The position numbers were made by a program, and so were the translations under genes. From a candidate division WOR-3 bacterium (GTDB lineage: Bacteria > Hydrothermota > UBA3072), in assembly GCA_039804165.1 (NCBI GenBank), contig JBDRZZ010000025.1, forward strand, positions 1 to 25,092: DNA of 25,092 nt. The letters run 5' to 3'. Position 1 is the first letter of the stretch, and every line of letters begins with the position of its first letter. Shown one piece after another: positions 11,313 to 24,294 of the stretch. Under the pieces are notes generated by a model that did no database searches, was not told the origin of the DNA, and saw only the letters and a program-made list of their open reading frames with translations.

Positions 11313-11341
11313 AGAGTGAAAATCATTAAAGGCTTCACTCT
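11313..11341 (-). terminator. Possible 3' hairpin at the end of the signalling operon
   Basis: AGAGTGAA and TTCACTCT (11313-11320 and 11334-11341) form an 8-bp stem with a 13-base loop that spans the stop codon of the last gene. On the minus strand it is followed by A residues rather than a T run, so it is not a standard intrinsic terminator. It may be a 3'-end stabilising hairpin. Confidence 0.25.
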
Positions 11342-12036
11342 GCTGAGCTTTTAAAATCGACAATTTCAATTCCTTTTAAATAAGGTTTTGTTACGTATTT
11401 TTTCACGTTTGCCATCTTTTTTACAATATCTTTAATCCTTAAGGCAGAATTTATAATAAAGTTAATCTTCTCTTCCCACGAAGGGTGTTCAGTTAGATCT
11501 TTTTTTAAAATCTCAGCCATTCCAATAATAGAGGTTAAAGGTTGATTTATTTCATGTGCAGCAGCTCCTGCTGTTTCAACCAGAACTTTAAGTCTTTCAG
11601 ACTGAAGGACAATCTCTTGCATTTTTTTTAAGCTTAGTAATAGCTTACTTCTTTCAAAAGCATAATTTAAGGATCTTATCAAAGTTCTATTATCTACTTC
11701 TCCTTTAACAAGATAATCTTGTGCTCCTTCCTTAACAGCTTCAATAGCTATCTTCTCATCATCAAGACCTGTCAAAATGACAATAGGGATATCGGCACCT
11801 TGCTTAAAAACTTTTCTAAAAGTCTCAAGACCAGAGCTATCTGGAAGACCAAGATCTAAAAGAATCATATCAATTTTTTCTTTTTTTATCGCCTCTAAAA
11901 ATTCAACAAGACTCGTTACACAAAGAACATCATAACTACTTTGTTTCAGCTGTATAGAAAGAACCTTTTGAAATTTTTTATCATCTTCGATAATAAGAAT
12001 TTTCTTTTTAGGTTCTTTTTTTAAAGAATCTTCCAT
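11335..12036 (-). CDS. Response regulator with a lone histidine-phosphoacceptor domain (REC-DHp)
   Basis: About 233 residues. The N-terminal receiver domain shows IIEDDKKF and MILLDLGLPDSSG with the phosphoacceptor Asp at about residue 61, ILTGLDDE, and the Lys of YLVKGE. After a coiled linker comes a HisKA-type segment, ETAGAAAHEINQPLTSIIGM, with the phosphoacceptor His at about residue 161. The protein then ends after some 70 residues (TKPYLKGIEIVDF). There is no N, G1 or G2 box, so it cannot bind ATP or phosphorylate itself and must receive phosphate from another kinase, most simply the hybrid kinase just upstream. The start is taken as ATG 12036; a TTG at 12054 is also possible and would overlap that kinase. 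It is the last gene of the operon, and no DNA-binding domain is present. Confidence 0.8.
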   Translation of the reverse strand: MEDSLKKEPKKKILIIEDDKKFQKVLSIQLKQSSYDVLCVTSLVEFLEAIKKEKIDMILLDLGLPDSSGLETFRKVFKQGADIPIVILTGLDDEKIAIEAVKEGAQDYLVKGEVDNRTLIRSLNYAFERSKLLLSLKKMQEIVLQSERLKVLVETAGAAAHEINQPLTSIIGMAEILKKDLTEHPSWEEKINFIINSALRIKDIVKKMANVKKYVTKPYLKGIEIVDFKSSAE

Positions 12037-12040
12037 AAGC

Positions 12041-14131
12041 TCATTTCCCTGCAAATTTTTTAATAGCTTCCAATAATTTTGCTTTCTTTATTGGTTTAGT
12101 AAGATATCCGTTACAACCCACTTTAATTGTCTTCTCTTCATCTTCTTTCAAAGCATAGGCGGTAAGAGCTAATATTGGAGTTGTTCCCTTTTTTTGTTCT
12201 TTCTCCCATTCTCTTATTAAACGAGTTGCATTATAACCGTCCATAATTGGCATCTGCATATCCATCAAAACTAAATCATATTTATTATTTTTAAACTTCT
12301 CTACAGCCTCTTTTCCATTTTCTGCGTCTTCAATTTTTATAGGAAAATTTTTTAAAAAAGCTTTTATAAGTAATCTATTATCGAGATTATCCTCAACAAG
12401 TAAAATATTAAGAGGCGGGAGAGAAATTTCTATTTCTTTTAACTCTTTTCTTTCTCTCTCTTCTTTTTTCTTCATCTTAGCCTTCCATAAACCTAAAGTA
12501 GAGAGAATGGCATTTTTCAATTCCTTTCTTTTTATTGGTTTTAGAAGAAAAGCTCCAATACCAATTTTATCTATCTCTTTTAAATGATGAGGCTTATAAT
12601 CTGAGGATAACATTATTATTGTGGTAGCTTCTGAATTTTTTTGTTTTCTTAAGAATTTTGCGACAGAAATTCCATCAATTTCCGGCATTCTACAATCAAG
12701 AAGAACAAGTTCAAAAGGTTGATTATTCTCATATGCTTCTTTAATTAAAGAAATAGCCTCATTTCCTCCTTTTGCTTCAACAATCTTTGCCTCCCAAGTA
12801 GAGAGAATTTCTCTTAAAATAAGTCTATTTGTTTCGTTGTCATCCACAATAAGAGTAGAAATACCCTTTACATCAATCTCTCCAGGTTTCACAAAAGTCT
12901 CTTTGCTTTTATCTTTCTGAATCTTAAATTTAGCTGTGAAGAAAAATGTGCTCCCCTCTCCTAACTTACTCTTAACCCACATTTTTCCATTCATAAGTTC
13001 TGTAAGTTTTTTTGAAATACTCAATCCAAGACCTGTTCCACCATATTTCCTTGTAGTAGAGGCATCTACCTGCTTAAAACTTTCAAAAATTTGTTCTTGC
13101 TTATCCAGGGGGATCCCAATTCCCGTATCCCTTATTGAAAAAAGCAAACAAATTTCCCCTTCCTCTTTAGGAAATTCCTCTTTTGAAATACTAACGTTAA
13201 GAACTATTTCTCCTTTTTCTGTAAACTTTATTGAATTTCCAAGGAGATTTACAATTATTTGACGAAGTCGGGTTGGATCTCCTACTAAATTTACAGGAAC
13301 ATTAGGTTCAATCCGAAATAAAAATTCGATGTTTTTCTTTCTTGCTCGAACCGCCATAACATCGCAGGTTTCCTCGATAAGATCTGCAAGATTAAAATCT
13401 ATCTTCTCAAGTTCTATTTCTCCAGCTTCTATCTTAGAAAGATCAAGAATATCATTTATTAGGGAAAGCAATGTATCTCCTGCTTTCTCCAATGTCTCAA
13501 CAAAACCTCTCTGTTCCTTAGAAAGAGGTGTATCAAGAAGAAGTTCAGTCATTCCTATAATAGCATTCATTGGGGTTCTTATCTCGTGACTCATTGAGGC
13601 TAAGAATTCACTTTTGGCTTTATTTGCCCTTTCAGCTTCCATTTTTGCCTTTTTCAGTTCCTTCTCGGCTTTTAAATGAGCTTCAATTTCCTTTTTAAGT
13701 GAAACATTTGCCCTTTGAAGTTCTTCATAAAGTTCATCTTTAGAAGGACGAGTAATTTCTTCTCTTAGCTTTTTTATAAAATCTTCTGTAAAATCAAAAG
13801 TTCTTGGAATAAATTTTGATAATTCTAAAAAACCCTCGCTTATTTTAACTTCGTCAAATATCTCTTCAAGAAAGAGATTCTCTCCAATTTTATTTTTAAA
13901 AAAAACTCTGATTAATAACCCAAATTGTCTCTCTTTTTCTTTAATAAATAAATCTACTCTACATTCATCATAAAGATTAATAACTCTATAAATTAATTCA
14001 GAAATAGCTGTTGTAATTTTAGTAGAAGTGATTTCTCCAAAACCAATTTTCTCTGCCAAATTAAATAATTTATCTCTTTTTTCAACAAAATATTCTTTAC
14101 CTTTAAATAAAATACTTCCAAGTTCAATCAT
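12041..14131 (-). CDS. Hybrid histidine kinase with an N-terminal RsbT-like segment and two receivers
   Basis: A soluble 696-residue kinase with no membrane segment or PAS domain. Residues 1 to about 85 resemble Rsb[29 protein letters not shown] matches the AEKIGF...TRIATAVSELTRNI of the RsbT encoded in the same operon, but the N-box Asn and the DxGxG box are gone. A coiled coil covers about 130-175. The kinase core follows with [14 protein letters not shown] (His182), the N box around [10 protein letters not shown]1 DTGIGI and G2 GGTGLGLSI. Receiver 1 has DCRMPEIDG (Asp479) and receiver 2 has [10 protein letters not shown] (Asp624). The order is RsbT-like - HisKA - HATPase - REC - REC. It overlaps the preceding rsbS-like gene by eight bases and the next gene is four bases away or overlapping. 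I infer that it takes its input from the stressosome through the N-terminus. Confidence 0.88.
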
Positions 14132-14591
14132 TAATTAAATTTTTCTTTTCCTTATCTTCTTCCTCCTGCAAAACATTAAGAGTTTCTCCTCGACCTATCG
14201 TTTCTTCAACTCTTTCTAAATCTAATTCTCCTTCTCCAACTATTGGTTGGAGTTTTTCTACACCTTCTTCAAAGGTCCTCGCAGTCCCGTATATCTCTTT
14301 AAAATCAAAATTTAAATTTACAAGAGAAATAGCAACCCCTGGTTTTATTCCTGTAAGAACGGTTTCTGCTCCCAAAAGATGAACCATTTTCGCTGTATTA
14401 TCAATAATAGAAGCAAGATAAGGTTCAACAATTCTAACTCCAGAGAGATCAATAACTACTCCTTTTACTTTAGAACTCCTTACTTCCCTTAAAATTTGTT
14501 CTTGGATCTCTTTCATTCTTCCTTCGTCAATCTCTCCTTGAATAGGAGCAATAAGACAACCCTTAGAAAAATTAATAGGAATTCTAGAAAT
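14124..14591 (-). CDS. RsbS-like STAS protein lacking the phosphorylatable serine
   Basis: A single STAS domain of the RsbS class. With the proposed ATT start at 14589-14591 it has 155 residues. [20 protein letters not shown] matches the RsbS N-terminus, KGVVIDLSG is the central strand, and [13 protein letters not shown] matches the VGIQPAVAISLV of the RsbS encoded upstream. Where RsbS has VDSF (phospho-Ser, Ser59 in B. subtilis), this protein has VEPY, so a Pro replaces the Ser. A charged tail of about 35 residues follows the domain. The first ATG, at 14516, would delete the first strand of the fold and has a cramped Shine-Dalgarno; the ATT sits six bases after a perfect AGGAGG. It lies directly before, and overlaps, the kinase with the RsbT-like N-terminus. 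Confidence 0.78.
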
Positions 14592-14602
14592 CTCTTCCCT
14601 CC
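14589..14602 (-). promoter_or_regulatory. AGGAGG Shine-Dalgarno and proposed ATT start of the rsbS-like gene
   Basis: After the TAA of the previous gene (14613-14615), the minus strand shows AGGAGG (14602-14597), six bases, then ATT (14591-14589). This opens the frame holding the conserved RsbS N-terminus, and an in-frame TAG lies just upstream. No ATG, GTG or TTG occurs between that TAG and the ATG at 14516. Confidence 0.55.
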
Positions 14603-14612
14603 TTAGCTAAAA

Positions 14613-15425
14613 TTAGCTTTTGGTCTTCTCGGATTTAATATTCCTAAATAGAACAAGATAAGCTCCGTCCCCTTCCCATTCGGTTTCTATAACTTTCATC
14701 TCTGCTTTGGTTTTAATCTTCCCTTTATCTATTATTTTGACTTCCTTTGTTTGCTCTAATTCTAAAGGGAAACAAAATGTTTCTCCAATAAGGTCCTCCG
14801 GTGGAGTCCCGAGAAAGTTTTCGGAAGAACTATTTGCAAATTGAACAATACCTTTCTTATCCACTATAATAACAGCATCTTCTATTCTTTCTATTATGTT
14901 TTTAAATCTTTCTTCACTCTTTTTAAGCTCTTTAATCTTTCTCTCTAACTCCATTAAAATTTTATGGCGTTCTACGGCAAAAAATATTGCTTGTAGAAGA
15001 GCATTTACACCCATCTGTCCCTTAACAAGAAAACCTTCTGCACCTCTTTTCATAGCCTCAAGACCAAGTCCTTCATCACTTAAAGCCGTAATCACAACTA
15101 TAGGAACTGAAGGTGCATTTCTTCTAACACTATCCAAAGTGGCTAATTCTTTACTATCTGGAAGATTAAGGTCTAATAAAATAAGATCAAATTTATTCTC
15201 CGAAAGACACTTTAGAGCTTCTCCAAGGGTCTCAACGTTTGTAAGAGCGAATTTTGTTCCTCCAACTAGTTCGGCTTCCTCGCAATAAGCCAAAGTTTCT
15301 CTAATGAAAGTAACGGCAAAAGAGGCATCTTCAATTAAAAGAACATTCATTACTTTAATATCATCACGAGCTCCTTCTATAATTTCAGCGTCTTTATTTT
15401 CATAATCTTTGTTTTCTTTATTCAT
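14613..15425 (-). CDS. Response regulator with C-terminal PAS domain (REC-PAS)
   Basis: 270 residues. After a 25-residue charged lead, a receiver domain runs from VMNVLLIEDAS through LILLDLNLPDS (phosphoacceptor Asp85), the VITAL strand, and the Lys of FLVKGQ. A short coiled coil (ELERKIKELKKSEERFKNIIERI) leads into a PAS domain of about residues 170-260 (DAVIIVDKKGIVQFANSS, FLGTPPEDLIGE). There is no kinase, STAS or DNA-binding domain. The ATG has GGAG six bases upstream. Its place between rsbR2 and the rsbS-like gene suggests that it links phosphorelay state to the stressosome; this is inference. Confidence 0.85.
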   Translation of the reverse strand: MNKENKDYENKDAEIIEGARDDIKVMNVLLIEDASFAVTFIRETLAYCEEAELVGGTKFALTNVETLGEALKCLSENKFDLILLDLNLPDSKELATLDSVRRNAPSVPIVVITALSDEGLGLEAMKRGAEGFLVKGQMGVNALLQAIFFAVERHKILMELERKIKELKKSEERFKNIIERIEDAVIIVDKKGIVQFANSSSENFLGTPPEDLIGETFCFPLELEQTKEVKIIDKGKIKTKAEMKVIETEWEGDGAYLVLFRNIKSEKTKS

Positions 15426-15444
15426 TTTACTCTCCTAATAAATC

Positions 15445-16308
15445 TCAAACCTCCTGTTTTTTCTTAGAAATCACATATTTTAGACCTTCTCTTAATGTAG
15501 AAAGAGTTTTAAGACCCGAAAGATCGATTCCAAGATCAGCAATTGTCTGGGCAATCTCTACTCCAATCCCAGTAAGAATAGCTTCTGCTCCAACCAGTCG
15601 CACTGCTTTTGCTGTTCTAATTAAGTGATCTGCTACTGCACTATCAACAGCTGTAATACCTGAAATATCTATTATAGCTACTTCAGCCCTTTTCTCAACA
15701 ATTTGTGTCAATAAAGCTTCTGAGATTCTTGAAGCTCTTTCACTATCAAGAGAACCCAATATCGGAACAGTTAAAACCCCTTCCCAAACATCAATTACAG
15801 GGGTCGAAAGCTCTAAGAGTTCTTCCTTTTGGGCCTTCAATTTTGCTTCTCTCTCAGCCTCCCAAAGTTTTCTTTCTGTTATATCTTTTGAAATTCCAAA
15901 AGTCCCTATTATGTTGCCTTTCTCGTCATACCTGGGAAGCTTGACAGTCTCCACCCATTTTTCCCTTCCATCTGGATAAACCTCTTTTTCTTCTTTACGA
16001 ATAGGCTTACCTGTTCTTATTATCTCCTGTTCATCTTCAAAGGCAGGTCTTGCGTGCGCTTCATCAAAAATATCAAAATCGGTTTTCCCAATCATCTCTT
16101 CAGGACTTTTGAACCCAAGATAAGTGGCACAAGCCTTACCTACTCTCACAAATCTGCTTTCTTTGTCTTTAAAATAAATATTATCAGGCAAATGCTCTAA
16201 AAGCGAATTTAATAAACTCCTGTCTAATTTCAGTTCTTCGTTTTCTTTCCTTAACTTCTCTATTTCTTTGAGTAACTCCTCCTTAGATCTTTCTCCCTTC
16301 TTTCCCAT
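15445..16308 (-). CDS. RsbR-type stressosome sensor, PAS-STAS (second copy)
   Basis: 287 residues. An N-terminal coiled coil (about 8-40) leads into a PAS domain (about 40-150, DNIYFKDKESRFVRVG through GTFGISKDITERK), in place of the globin-like sensor of B. subtilis RsbRA. The C-terminal STAS domain starts at LLELSTPVIDVWEGVLTVPI and contains GSLDSERASRI and DISGITAVDSAVADH, then ILTGIGVEIAQTI. These are the RsbR signatures; both usual phospho-Thr positions (GTLDT, VDT) appear as Ser. The STAS half is almost identical in DNA to the first rsbR at 18055-18900, while the PAS halves differ. AGGAGGT lies seven bases before the ATG. Confidence 0.9.
   Translation of the reverse strand: MGKKGERSKEELLKEIEKLRKENEELKLDRSLLNSLLEHLPDNIYFKDKESRFVRVGKACATYLGFKSPEEMIGKTDFDIFDEAHARPAFEDEQEIIRTGKPIRKEEKEVYPDGREKWVETVKLPRYDEKGNIIGTFGISKDITERKLWEAEREAKLKAQKEELLELSTPVIDVWEGVLTVPILGSLDSERASRISEALLTQIVEKRAEVAIIDISGITAVDSAVADHLIRTAKAVRLVGAEAILTGIGVEIAQTIADLGIDLSGLKTLSTLREGLKYVISKKKQEV
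15472..15804 (-). repeat. 333-bp direct repeat: STAS-coding half of rsbR (copy in the second gene)
   Basis: This stretch matches 18103-18435 with about 10 differences in 333 bases by my hand alignment (about 97%). The protein differs at only three residues. The match ends abruptly at the PAS side. Confidence 0.9.
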
Positions 16309-16323
16309 TTTACTTACCTCCTT

Positions 16324-17316
16324 TTATGGTATTTTTGCAATTAATAAAGTTGCATCATCTGTCTTCTTTCTATACTTCTCAAAAGCTTCTTTTGCAACTT
16401 CCATAACAGGTCTATATATAACTCTTTTATCTTCAAAATTAAAAGAAGAAACTCCGTCAGAATGTAAAACAATAAGACAAGGGGTAGTAAGTTTCATTTT
16501 TTCTGTTTTAAAACTTCTCATATTACTTCCTAAAAGCCCATCAAAAGAAACCAACCTTCTATACATTTCGGGGGTATAAATCTGCGCTTTAATATTTCCT
16601 ATCCCAAGGAATTCTACATCACCATTCTTACTCATCCTAACAATTCCAATAACACAACCTCTACTGTGTTGAAGCTTATGATGGATTGCCAAAACAATTT
16701 CTTCAAGGTCATCTTTAAATCTATCCTTGAGCACTTTTATCGCCAATTTACTCGCCAAATTTGCCTTTGTTCCATGCCCAATACCATCAAGAACAGCCAC
16801 AACTGCATAATCTCCATATCTCTTCACAAAATAAGCATCTCCATTACTTTTAAAACCACTCATTGGCCGACTATAAACACTAATCTCTATTGAATTTCTC
16901 TTCTTATCCGAAAAAATCTTTCTCCCACTTAAAATAAATTTCCCATTCTCTACTTTAACCTTAACATCATTGAGTAATCTCTTTACGGCTCCTAATCCTA
17001 TTCCAAGTGTTTTTGCGGTGCTATATCCATCATCAAAAATTTCTTTTGTATCCACAGGGAAATCTACAGGATTCTCAGCTACAATATATACACTCTTTTC
17101 ATCTCCTCCTTCAAGGAAAATACTCAACTTGCCAGAAGAACTATGCTTTATCATATTTTTCGAAATTTCCTTTATTACAATCTTGAGCTCTTCTATGTCT
17201 TTTTCTTTAAGACTAAATCCTTTAACAAATTTTACCGTCTCAGAACCAGCTCTAAGGACATCCTCAGGACACTCTATATTAAATTCTATTGAAGGAAAAT
17301 TCTTATCTTCTTTCAT
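16324..17316 (-). CDS. RsbT-like / RsbX-like fusion: PP2C (SpoIIE-type) phosphatase
   Basis: 330 residues. About 1-135 is a GHKL ATPase-like domain of the RsbT/anti-sigma type: N-box region IVIKEISKNMIKHS, and G2-like DDGYSTAKTLGIGLGAVKRL. The G1 DxGxG is replaced by ENPVDFPVD, so ATP binding is doubtful. From about 145 to the end it is a PP2C-type phosphatase with Asp160, LDGIGHG (177-182), LGIGNIKA, LHSDGV (Asp287) and TDDATLL (Asp320/321). This metal-binding set is complete, and RsbX with this fold resets phosphorylated RsbR and RsbS. It overlaps rsbT by four bases. Its likely role is to dephosphorylate the stressosome. B. subtilis RsbX has no N-terminal domain like this one. Confidence 0.85.
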   Translation of the reverse strand: MKEDKNFPSIEFNIECPEDVLRAGSETVKFVKGFSLKEKDIEELKIVIKEISKNMIKHSSSGKLSIFLEGGDEKSVYIVAENPVDFPVDTKEIFDDGYSTAKTLGIGLGAVKRLLNDVKVKVENGKFILSGRKIFSDKKRNSIEISVYSRPMSGFKSNGDAYFVKRYGDYAVVAVLDGIGHGTKANLASKLAIKVLKDRFKDDLEEIVLAIHHKLQHSRGCVIGIVRMSKNGDVEFLGIGNIKAQIYTPEMYRRLVSFDGLLGSNMRSFKTEKMKLTTPCLIVLHSDGVSSFNFEDKRVIYRPVMEVAKEAFEKYRKKTDDATLLIAKIP

Positions 17317-17702
17317 CTTAATCTTTTATAAGTTATCACTTTTGTTCCTCTTTCATTACTTTCAATTTTAAATTCATCCATAAGATGTTTAGCTCCAATA
17401 AGGCCTATCCCCAAAGAATTGGAAGTGCTATAACCTCTTTCCATTGCTTTTTCAATATCCGGAATTCCAGGACCTTCATCTTGAAAGACAATTTCCATTC
17501 CCCCTTCATCTTTATAAACAATTACCTCTCCCCTATAAGCGTGTTTTATTATATTCCTTGTAAGTTCAGAAACCGCTGTTGCTATTCTTGTTTGATCAAT
17601 CCATCTAAAACCTATTTTTTCAGCCTGATTTTTTACCTCACGTCTTGCAATTAAAACATCTATTTCTTTAACTATTGGAATCCTTAAAATCTCCTCTTTC
17701 AT
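17313..17702 (-). CDS. rsbT: RsbT-type serine kinase of the stressosome
   Basis: This 129-residue kinase phosphorylates RsbS and RsbR and, once released, activates a downstream partner. The sequence follows B. subtilis RsbT closely: IARREVKNQAEKIGF, the N box TAVSELTRNIIKHA with Asn50, the G1 box QDEGPGIPD at 74-82, and GYSTSNSLGIGLIGAKHLMDEF. All ATP-binding boxes are intact, unlike the RsbT-like parts of the two neighbouring proteins. The start overlaps the rsbS stop (ATGA) and its stop overlaps the next gene by four bases. The usual RsbT target, RsbU, is not in the window. Confidence 0.93.
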   Translation of the reverse strand: MKEEILRIPIVKEIDVLIARREVKNQAEKIGFRWIDQTRIATAVSELTRNIIKHAYRGEVIVYKDEGGMEIVFQDEGPGIPDIEKAMERGYSTSNSLGIGLIGAKHLMDEFKIESNERGTKVITYKRLR

Positions 17703-18067
17703 AATGAATTTTTATCTATCTTTTTTCTCAGTTTTTCAATAGCAGCATCAAGCTCAAAAGCTGTTTCTATTTCCTCAAGATATAAACCAAGTTCTACAAG
17801 AGAAATTGCAACAGCCGGCTGAATCCCAACAACTATGACTTCTTTTCCCATAGCATTTAAGCCCGTTGCTATTTTCTGAAGCAATCGTCCAAGAAAGCTA
17901 TCTACTATATCAAGGGCAGAGATATCTATCGCTACACCTTTAATTTTAGAGTCTTCAGCCTCTCTAATTATCGCCTCTCCGGTTTCCTCTGCAGCTGTAT
18001 CATGAAGTTCTTCCTGAATTGGAACAACAAGAATATCTCCCAAATGCATCCTTGTCAGTCTTGCCAT
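17699..18067 (-). CDS. rsbS: RsbS-type STAS protein of the stressosome core
   Basis: 122 residues forming a single STAS domain. The signature ALDIVDSFLGRLLQ contains Ser57, aligned with the B. subtilis RsbS phosphoserine 59. It is followed by VVGIQPAVAISLVELGLYLEEIETAFELD, a close match to RsbS. In the family it forms the scaffold with RsbR and holds RsbT until it is phosphorylated. The ATG overlaps the end of the first rsbR by 13 bases, with GAGG/GGAGG close upstream; Met7 is a weaker alternative start. It is overlapped by rsbT downstream. Confidence 0.93.
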   Translation of the reverse strand: MARLTRMHLGDILVVPIQEELHDTAAEETGEAIIREAEDSKIKGVAIDISALDIVDSFLGRLLQKIATGLNAMGKEVIVVGIQPAVAISLVELGLYLEEIETAFELDAAIEKLRKKIDKNSL

Positions 18068-18900
18068 TCTCCTCCTCTTTTATTCTTTGCTCTTTTTGAA
18101 ACCACATATTTTAGACCTTCTCTTAATGTAGAAAGAGTTTTAAGACCCGAAAGATCGATTCCAAGATCAGCAATTGTCTGGGCAATCTCTACTCCAATCC
18201 CAGTAAGAATAGCTTCCGCTCCAACTAGCTGCACTGCTTTTGCTGTCTTAATTAAATGATCTGCTACTGCACTATCAACAGCTGTAATACCTGAAATATC
18301 TATTATAGCTACTTCAACCCTCTTCTCAACAATTTGTGTCAATAAAGCTTCTGAGATTCTTGAAGCTCTTTCACTATCAAGAGAACCCAATATTGGAACA
18401 GTTAAAACCCCTTCCCAAACATCAATTACAGGGGTTGAGATTTCTAAAAGTTCTTCCTTCTGAGCTTCAATTTTTTTCTCTTTTTCAAGCTCAAGAAGTT
18501 TCAATTTTGTAACGTCTTTTGTAATACCAAGAGTCCCAATTATATTACCTTCGTAATCATAAAATGGTAATTTCGTTACAGAAACCCAAGCATCTTTTCC
18601 TCCAGGGAGTGTGATTTTGAAAATTTTATCTATAATAGGTTTTCCACTCCTCATTATCCTTTTTTCTTCCTCAAACATTTCTCTTGCTACATCCTCTGGA
18701 TAAAAATCAAAATCTGTTTTTCCTACATATTCCTCTCTGGAAAGGCCTGTTCCTTCTGCCTTCGAAGCACTTACAGCCAAAAAACGCCCTTCTTTATCTT
18801 TAAAATAAATCCTATCAGGAATATGCTCTAAAAGCGCATCTAACATCATACTCTTTGAAAGAAGTTCCTCTTCTCTCTTTGGTAAATTTTTCTTATTCAC
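18055..18900 (-). CDS. RsbR-type stressosome sensor, PAS-STAS (first copy, head of operon)
   Basis: 281 residues. A PAS domain covers about residues 20-130 (DRIYFKDKEGRFLAVSAS, VGKTDFDFYPEDVA, GTLGITKDVTKL). A short helix (KEKKIEAQKEELLEIS) joins it to a STAS domain with GSLDSERASRI and DISGITAVDSAVADH, which place it in the RsbR class with Ser at the usual phospho-Thr sites. The frame extends 47 codons upstream, but that extension crosses the promoter region. GTG at 18898-18900 with AGGAGG seven bases upstream is the better start. It heads the operon and supplies the sensor subunit for RsbS and RsbT. Confidence 0.9.
   Translation of the reverse strand: MNKKNLPKREEELLSKSMMLDALLEHIPDRIYFKDKEGRFLAVSASKAEGTGLSREEYVGKTDFDFYPEDVAREMFEEEKRIMRSGKPIIDKIFKITLPGGKDAWVSVTKLPFYDYEGNIIGTLGITKDVTKLKLLELEKEKKIEAQKEELLEISTPVIDVWEGVLTVPILGSLDSERASRISEALLTQIVEKRVEVAIIDISGITAVDSAVADHLIKTAKAVQLVGAEAILTGIGVEIAQTIADLGIDLSGLKTLSTLREGLKYVVSKRAKNKRGGEWQD
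18103..18435 (-). repeat. 333-bp direct repeat: STAS-coding half of rsbR (copy in the first gene)
   Basis: Partner of 15472-15804 in the same orientation, 2631 bases away. Outside the repeat the two rsbR genes differ strongly. Confidence 0.9.
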
Positions 18901-19060: not shown

Positions 19061-19094
19061 TAAAAATCGGGGAAGGTTCTCACCTCCCCCGATT
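19061..19094 (-). terminator. Strong intrinsic terminator after serA
   Basis: On the minus strand AATCGGGGGAGG (19094-19083), a six-base loop and CCTTCCCCGATT (19076-19065) form a 12-bp stem with one G-U pair, followed by TTT. It sits 30 bases past the serA stop and separates that operon from the stressosome operon. Confidence 0.85.
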
Positions 19095-22800: not shown

Positions 22801-24294
22801 TTATTTGCCTATAGAAGAAAACTCGATTCTATCTCCACCTTTTTCTTTAGCAATATAACAAGCATTATCTGCATAACGGACGAGTTCAATAAATGTTTTC
22901 CCGTCATAAGGATAGACCCCCACACCAATAGAAACAGTTAATCCTTTAAGAAACTCGTTTTCTCTTACTTTCTCAAGCATTTGATTAGCTATTTTTACAG
23001 CCTTATTAATATTCGTTTTTCTTAAAAGAGCAATAAATTCATCACCACCGTATCTTCCAAGTAAATCATTAGAAGATAAACAACTTTTCATAATATTAGA
23101 GAAAATTTTTAAACCCTCATCCCCTCTCTGATGACCATACCTATCGTTAAATTCTTTAAAATTATCAAAATCAAGAAACAAAATCGTAAATTCCTCCCCT
23201 CTTTTTTCTGCAAGAGCAATCTCTTCCATTATCTTTTCCTCTAAAATCCTTCTGTTAACCGCTCCTGTTAAAGGATCCTCTATGGAAAGTCTCTTTGTTT
23301 CTTCAAAAAGCTTAGAGCGCTCTATAGCAATTGCAATTTGAGCTCCAAGAGCTACTAATAAATTTCTTGCTGATTTAGGAAAGGCTTCTCTTTGAAGACT
23401 TTCAATATCAAGAACACCTATCACCTTATCTCTAATTTTAAGAGGTATTGAAAATTCAGATCTTTTCTTAAATCCTTTTGGCCCATGTAAAGGAACCATA
23501 GAAACATCAGCAGCATAATAAGGTTGACCTGTTTCTATAACCCTTCCAATAATACCTCCTTCATCAATTCTCATTTTTGTCCCTATATGTTCTTTTATAG
23601 AATTTACTCCCCACTTAAGTGTAGCATACTTCCCATCCTCTTCCACAAGATAAACCGCTATAATTTCATAACCAAAATGCATTGTTAACTGCTTAATAAT
23701 TTCTTCGATTAATTGATCAATATCCAAACTAGCATTAATTATGTTACTTAAATCACAAGAAATTCGGAGTTCTCTCATAACCTCGTTAAGTTTTTGGTAA
23801 AGTCTGGAATTGGCAAGAGCATAAGCAAGTATAGGAGCAATATTTCTTATTAACTCTTTTATCTCTTCCACTTTATCAGAAACATCTTCAAAATAATACA
23901 AATATAAAATACCTTCTACCTCTCCCCTAAGTCCTATAGGAGCAGCTATTAATAGTTTTATCCTATCCATAATTCCACTTTTCCTATTAGAAAATTCATA
24001 AGAGTTTCTCGTAACTATAATATTTCTCTTTCTTATCACTTCTCCTTCTATTCCTATAGCTAAATTTGCTGTGCTTCTATGAGTAGAAAATTCTTTCTTC
24101 TCAGGATAATAATCATAAGCAATTTTTTCTGGATTTTCTTTAAGGATTAAAAAAGAAGAATAATCAGCCCCTGAAATCTCAGGCACCGACTTTAGGATTT
24201 CTCTTATAATCCCTTCTTGCTTAGAGAAAAGGGAAAGATTCCCTAATAAACGGCCTACCCAATTCAAAAACTCTATTTCATTATAAGTTTTCAT
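22801..24294 (-). CDS. Diguanylate cyclase with two GAF domains
   Basis: 497 residues, soluble. The first GAF-like domain covers about 10-165 and the second about 185-325 (YEIIAVYLVEEDGKY, GGIIGRVIETGQPYYAADV, RSEFSIPLKIRDKVIGVLDIES). The GGDEF domain follows from DPLTGAVNRRILEE, with FLDFDNFKEFNDRYGHQ and the catalytic GRYGGDEF (GGDEF at 416-420), then LTVSIGVGVYP and YADNACYIAKEKG. All catalytic parts are intact, so it should make cyclic di-GMP from GTP. The inhibitory RxxD site usually found a few residues upstream reads SSND, so product inhibition is probably lost. The first gene of its operon; its promoter lies so close to the ATG that the mRNA may be leaderless. Confidence 0.9.
   Translation of the reverse strand: MKTYNEIEFLNWVGRLLGNLSLFSKQEGIIREILKSVPEISGADYSSFLILKENPEKIAYDYYPEKKEFSTHRSTANLAIGIEGEVIRKRNIIVTRNSYEFSNRKSGIMDRIKLLIAAPIGLRGEVEGILYLYYFEDVSDKVEEIKELIRNIAPILAYALANSRLYQKLNEVMRELRISCDLSNIINASLDIDQLIEEIIKQLTMHFGYEIIAVYLVEEDGKYATLKWGVNSIKEHIGTKMRIDEGGIIGRVIETGQPYYAADVSMVPLHGPKGFKKRSEFSIPLKIRDKVIGVLDIESLQREAFPKSARNLLVALGAQIAIAIERSKLFEETKRLSIEDPLTGAVNRRILEEKIMEEIALAEKRGEEFTILFLDFDNFKEFNDRYGHQRGDEGLKIFSNIMKSCLSSNDLLGRYGGDEFIALLRKTNINKAVKIANQMLEKVRENEFLKGLTVSIGVGVYPYDGKTFIELVRYADNACYIAKEKGGDRIEFSSIGK

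Follow-up and report, generated by a model that had tools for sequence, protein, structure and literature searches.

In the stressosome, RsbT binds a core of RsbR and RsbS, phosphorylates it and departs under stress, and RsbX reverses the phosphorylation (PMC9237108, PMC10014275). Bound to RsbU, RsbT exerts its effect via a helical linker, which dimerizes the output, and RsbU_N-bearing kinases behind stressosomes have also been published (PMC12143880). Operons in which RsbR, RsbS, RsbT and RsbX (RSTX) are followed by HisKA/REC proteins form a described class in which most downstream proteins lack RsbU_N (Heinz et al. 2022, PMC9237108); for Vibrio, the stressosome output is proposed to be the kinase and response regulator encoded downstream of it (PMC9237108, PMC10014275). 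Here, we analyzed a nine-gene operon from candidate division WOR-3, carried on one whole contig of 25,092 bases (the window) of a 1.95-Mb, 49-contig draft metagenome-assembled genome (MAG) that is 95% complete. On balance, we favor the hypothesis that this operon encodes a stressosome (RsbR1 and RsbR2 with PAS sensors, RsbS1, RsbT and RsbTX) with a hybrid histidine kinase as its output, and that this kinase is docked on the STAS core through a degenerate RsbT domain and gated there. For the question of how stressosomes without sigma-B signal to two-component kinases, a docking domain derived from RsbT and borne by the kinase would be a concrete, testable answer.

The N-terminal domain of the hybrid kinase

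The hybrid kinase (12041..14131, minus strand, as are all operon genes) begins with an RsbT-like domain (residues 1-110; 13802..14131, minus strand), followed by a helical linker (residues 112-156), HisKA with the motif SHEIRTP, HATPase_c with N, G1 and G2 boxes, and two REC domains, the full set expected of a hybrid histidine kinase. Its N-terminus aligns with the RsbT of the same operon by BLASTP with an expectation value (E) of 3e-7 over 33 residues. A hidden Markov model of intact RsbT, searched among 1,737 other open reading frames, matched this kinase (5.8e-7), its counterpart in a sister species (9e-9) and a kinase from a Flavobacteriales MAG (7e-7); the N-termini of domain-free kinases, used as a control, scored E >30. 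In a profile-profile comparison, the degenerate set aligned with RsbT over 113 columns (E 2e-14). As a sequence search of the PDB with the profile of this domain returned chance matches only, a fold search was needed.

We modeled the domain with AlphaFold2 from an alignment of just two kinase N-termini, which kept RsbT sequences from biasing the model. The prediction (predicted local distance difference test, pLDDT, 87.5; predicted template modeling score 0.79) found its best fold matches in RsbW (Z 12.8), UsfX (12.3) and SpoIIAB (11.9), with histidine-kinase catalytic domains at about 6. RsbW, UsfX and SpoIIAB are STAS-binding switch kinases. The Flavobacteriales copy, also modeled with AlphaFold2, gave a pLDDT of 82.2 and matched RsbW with Z 13.5.

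SpoIIAB uses Asn50 to chelate Mg and Glu46 as catalytic base, and its Arg20 belongs to a cluster at the SpoIIAA-binding site (PMC10345196). The equivalents of Asn50 and of the DxGxG motif do not vary among 25 intact relatives; each of the eight degenerate copies has lost both, with the GxG region largely missing. The kinase N-terminus thus has the homology and the fold of an RsbT switch kinase but not the ATP/Mg residues, and we refer to it as pseudo-RsbT. An arginine at the Arg20 position is present in five of the eight copies, including the window kinase, and Glu46 in six. Catalysis is therefore lost, and the side of the domain that faces STAS may be retained. An earlier note on this DNA, made from the sequence alone, had placed inactive RsbS- and RsbT-like units on the kinase side; the loss of active residues stands, and the RsbT-like unit turns out to be the hybrid kinase's own N-terminus.

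For kinases without RsbU_N, Heinz et al. (2022, PMC9237108) proposed that RsbT released under stress phosphorylates or binds the kinase, as in the case of V. vulnificus D1. Applied here, released RsbT would act transiently and the N-terminal domain would be a functionless fossil, consistent with its lost catalytic residues. We regard this as very unlikely: a fossil would not be expected to fold (pLDDT 87.5), to keep 48% identity between two WOR-3 species or to hold a surface arginine across phyla, and the same authors did not find an interaction between RsbT and D1 (PMC9237108).

Two other kinases were rejected as further cases. The one on G000:C5, which matches weakly at its N-terminus, is a PhoR-type kinase of the ordinary sort; the one on G000:C4, a close relative of the hybrid kinase, has a PAS domain at its N-terminus and no pseudo-RsbT.

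The operon, its second RsbS and its output

Nine consecutive open reading frames run on the minus strand from about 18900 to 11335, and Pfam confirmed the domains of all nine in the order PAS+STAS, STAS, HATPase_c_2, HATPase+SpoIIE, PAS+STAS, REC+PAS, STAS, HisKA+HATPase_c+2xREC and REC+HisKA without HATPase, which is the order given in the earlier note. The four-base overlaps it described are found at rsbS/rsbT and rsbT/rsbTX; the other junctions range from a 14-base overlap to gaps of about 20 bases.

The first set (18900-16324) holds every component of an RSTX stressosome in adjacent genes. rsbR1 (18055..18900) encodes a PAS sensor and a STAS domain (PAS_4 9e-17, STAS 1e-13); it starts with GTG at 18900, preceded by AAAGGAGG, and its N-terminal part is the ortholog of the first RsbR in the sister species. 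rsbS1 (17699..18067) encodes a single STAS domain (7e-12) with the canonical VDSF phospho-Ser site, as aligned with B. subtilis RsbS. rsbT (17313..17702; HATPase_c_2 1.3e-12) is, by alignment, an intact switch kinase with the N-box SELTRN and the motifs DEGPG and GIGL. rsbTX (16324..17316; SpoIIE 1.1e-6, HATPase 4.9e-5) joins an RsbT-like domain that has lost DxGxG to an RsbX-type PP2C phosphatase, a fusion also found downstream of rsbT in other WOR-3 families, Bacteroidota, Deinococcus and Proteobacteria. Then come rsbR2 (15445..16308; PAS sensor and STAS by Pfam), a response-regulator-like REC + PAS protein (14613..15425; Response_reg 4.6e-15, PAS 1.2e-6), rsbS2 (14124..14591; STAS 8e-14) and the hybrid kinase. 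With kinase and receivers in one operon with RSTX, the locus falls in the RSTX-linked two-component output class of Vibrio D1.

RsbS2 lacks the Ser or Thr that a canonical RsbS has at the position of B. subtilis Ser59, reading VEPY where RsbS1 reads VDSF (VEPY/IEPY in the two WOR-3 species). In trees built with the phospho-site columns removed, and in which long branches are present, the Ser-less RsbS proteins (n=6) form one side of a branch with support 95/93, separate from RsbS1 of the same operon; constraining the WOR-3 RsbS1 and RsbS2 together cost 15.6 log units (approximately unbiased, AU, test p 0.059). As RsbS2 groups apart from RsbS1 and duplication is nearly rejected, these trees favor, without proving it, a kinase arm that is a merged second stressosome type over one that arose by local duplication. 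The idea in the earlier note that the kinase-side parts are duplicated stressosome units is therefore probably wrong as regards local duplicates: RsbS2 joins the Ser-less RsbS of other phyla, although duplication within the genus is only nearly rejected. No ATG, GTG or TTG is correctly placed for rsbS2; its best start is a probable ATT (14589-14591), six bases past AAGGAGG, and its counterpart in the sister species starts with GTG. Such a rare start may set a low dose of the RsbS2 subunit.

The classic RsbU/V/W/sigma-B output was not found in the draft genome, with its incompleteness as a caveat. The four STAS proteins of the genome are all within the operon, RsbU_N is absent from the genome, SpoIIE-type phosphatases are limited to RsbTX and one gene elsewhere, and no HATPase_c_2 protein besides RsbT scored above the cut-off. 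The hybrid kinase itself carries no RsbU_N by Pfam and so differs from the RsbU_N-coupled kinases. The lack of any other STAS protein and of RsbU_N supports the suggestion, already made in the earlier note, that the stressosome feeds a His-Asp output instead of a sigma factor.

From these features we infer how the kinase would dock, on which partner, how it would be gated, in which direction switched and toward what final output. Instead of awaiting released RsbT, the kinase would dock on the STAS core by its own ATP-dead RsbT domain, with pseudo-RsbT occupying an RsbT-like site, most likely on RsbS2. Being unphosphorylatable at the usual Ser, RsbS2 would lack the normal route to partner release, and we therefore favor a held kinase gated by phosphorylation of neighboring RsbR and RsbS1 over a released messenger. 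Under stress, RsbT would phosphorylate RsbR and RsbS1, with RsbTX reversing this, and the docking surface would be altered; the strain would travel from pseudo-RsbT through the short helical linker to the HisKA dimer and switch autophosphorylation, and His-to-Asp transfer would then proceed to the kinase's own receivers and to the REC/PAS protein. This hypothesis points the search to contacts of the kinase with RsbS and RsbR rather than with RsbT.

The kinase could also be an upstream input arm, phosphorylating the REC/PAS protein or its own receivers, with pseudo-RsbT competing with RsbT for STAS sites and the real output elsewhere. A dead RsbT would suit such tuning of the stressosome by competition, the operon lacks an output domain, and a gene for a GAF-GGDEF diguanylate cyclase (22801-24294), upstream of that for PBP1a and 3.8 kb upstream of the operon, is a possible but unlinked output candidate. 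Its product, however, has neither RsbU_N nor REC, and the Vibrio kinase and response regulator that follow a stressosome have been proposed as its output (PMC9237108, PMC10014275); we consider an input arm quite unlikely.

At the end of the operon, the REC + DHp gene without a catalytic domain (11335..12054; Response_reg 6e-23, HisKA 4e-10) possibly encodes a phosphotransfer protein. Between serA and the operon lies a terminator-like hairpin (19069..19089, minus strand), for which the evidence is weak, as such sites are no commoner in this region than in shuffled sequence. Promoter and terminator scans of the region gave chance-level results only, and an Rfam search of the window returned no match.

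Conservation in a sister species and in the phylum

Eight of the nine operon genes occur in the same order, across one assembly break, in the sole sister species compared (G001, same genus). Its first contig reads PBP1a-OmpA-SerA-RsbR-RsbR-RsbS-RsbT-RsbTX-RsbR and ends within the RsbR STAS domain; its second begins within an RsbR STAS domain and continues with REC/PAS, RsbS2 and the hybrid kinase. PBP1a, OmpA and SerA lie upstream of the operon in both species, and the sister species has one RsbR more than the window. We rejected the possibility that the two halves lie at separate loci there: each of the two contigs stops within the repeated RsbR STAS, as at an assembly break. The sister species lacks a full-length relative of the terminal REC/DHp gene, which does not belong to the conserved unit. 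The earlier note had proposed looking to relatives for the whole nine-gene order, which thus holds for eight genes, given the join of the contigs, and not for the last.

The assembly broke there because the RsbR STAS domain is a near-exact repeat. In the window, the STAS parts of rsbR1 (18055-18450) and rsbR2 (15445-15820) share 95.8% DNA identity and their N-terminal sensor parts 59%; STAS identity is 71-74% between the species and 84% between two copies in the sister species. Judging from these identities, gene conversion seems to keep the core-forming STAS domains uniform while the sensors diverge.

The conserved order also bears on whether the operon joins two independent systems, a self-contained stressosome and a kinase with a private sensor or dimerization unit made of RsbS2 and pseudo-RsbT, without contact between them. 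RsbS2 does fall in a different RsbS group from RsbS1, and the REC/PAS-rsbS2-kinase block is contiguous in the sister species. Yet the conserved order has RsbR2, which cores need, separating the two blocks, kinases of this type directly follow a single RsbR-S-T set in other phyla, and the stressosome has no other output here (no other STAS, no RsbU_N), so that we hold two independent systems to be unlikely.

Among 147 genomes of the phylum, the kinase fusion was found only in the genus of the window. A WOR-3 family (f22) has RsbRST loci without adjoining kinases; these loci (L070:7426-10411, L071:6692-8584, L076:381-1666) contain tandem RsbS or RsbT genes, with several loci per genome.

RsbT-kinase fusions in other phyla and known systems

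Intact RsbT-kinase fusions lie behind RsbR-S-T-TX on plasmid MP1 of Deinococcus radiodurans and in Phaeobacter porticola, Paraburkholderia sp. D15 and Sphingomonas aliaeris, and, with one other kinase gene intervening, in a Bacteroidota genome (L143). The gene of D. radiodurans, a laboratory organism (DR_RS15590; L149:9533-11266; annotated as 'ATP-binding protein'), belongs to a full RSTX operon and encodes an intact fusion of RsbT, histidine kinase and receiver. Most degenerate fusions are accompanied by a Ser-less RsbS, as in WOR-3, the Flavobacteriales MAG and an Elusimicrobia MAG (VEPY, IDPY and VDRY). Fusions of either sort were found in 4 of 395 Bacteroidota genomes sampled and 1 of 247 in the Elusimicrobia phylum, counts in which intact fusions are under-represented because the survey profile was of the degenerate form. 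A second pseudo-RsbT kinase of the Flavobacteriales MAG (L140:8369-9910) has no STAS gene near it and could dock in trans on the same particle.

The N-termini of a D1-like kinase from Vibrio sp. THAF191d and a PP2C phosphatase from Flammeovirga kamogawensis resemble each other (E 9e-8). Both resemble pseudo-RsbT less closely and are probably relatives of it; the Vibrio D1 N-terminus matches the pseudo-RsbT family weakly (leave-out E 0.052) and RsbT in a single comparison with E 5e-4. The RsbS site reads LDRQ in the Vibrio strain and IDIS in F. kamogawensis; in V. brasiliensis, the RsbS phospho-sites of B. subtilis are not conserved (PMC4976288). On plasmid p1 of F. kamogawensis (L158:1-1623, L152:7733-9387), the phosphatase, whose N-terminal domain and linker are of the same kind as those of Vibrio D1, follows a globin stressosome and precedes a STAS antagonist.

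A broader and more tentative idea is that the ATP-dead RsbT family serves as a general adaptor for non-sigma outputs (histidine kinases and the Flammeovirga phosphatase), matched with a permanently anchoring Ser-less RsbS lineage and working by particle allostery rather than messenger release; the WOR-3 operon would then merge a classic and an anchored stressosome in one particle. If true, the Ser-less lineage and the gradation from intact to degenerate copies across phyla would be a clear example of a catalytic switch protein becoming a pure adaptor.

Several points weigh against a docked and gated kinase. The argument for docking is one of homology, and pseudo-RsbT might be a mere dimerization domain or bind another partner. 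The Arg20 equivalent is absent in L140, L141 and L142, and the last two, both from Bacteroidota, adjoin a Ser-bearing RsbS, so that loss of the Ser is not required. The operon contains no DNA-binding or enzymatic output, the two contigs of the sister species are joined by inference, and both WOR-3 genomes are draft MAGs, each about 95% complete.

The earlier note had not recognized this combination of stressosome and phosphorelay. The link as such is a published class (PMC9237108), but in the literature searched, mostly open-access, we saw no mention of a kinase with RsbT fused to it, of the dead form of this RsbT or of an operon with two RsbS types, though an N-terminal HATPase_c may be depicted uncommented in Fig. 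3 of Heinz et al. (2022). The D1-D2 systems of Vibrio vulnificus and V. brasiliensis (PMC9237108, PMC10014275, PMC4976288) likewise place a sensor kinase and a response regulator behind RsbR-S-T-X, with no sigma-B, and differ in their single RsbS, globin RsbR and separate RsbX; these papers do not liken the D1 N-terminus to RsbT. Bacillus subtilis (RsbRST-RsbU-RsbVW-sigma B) shares the RsbR, RsbS, RsbT and RsbX core, whereas no RsbU, RsbV, RsbW or sigma-B branch was found in the WOR-3 genome. In the Deinococcus, Phaeobacter, Paraburkholderia and Sphingomonas operons, the order is likewise RsbR-S-T-TX-kinase and the kinase begins with an RsbT domain, but there the fused RsbT keeps its ATP motifs, a Ser or Thr is retained in RsbS, and a second RsbS is missing. 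The RsbU_N kinases and cyclases (Moorella MtG; Proteobacteria; PMC12143880, PMC9237108) also connect the stressosome signal to an output other than a phosphatase, by way of an N-terminal domain and a helical linker; there, RsbU_N receives released RsbT, whereas the WOR-3 kinase carries a relative of RsbT covalently.

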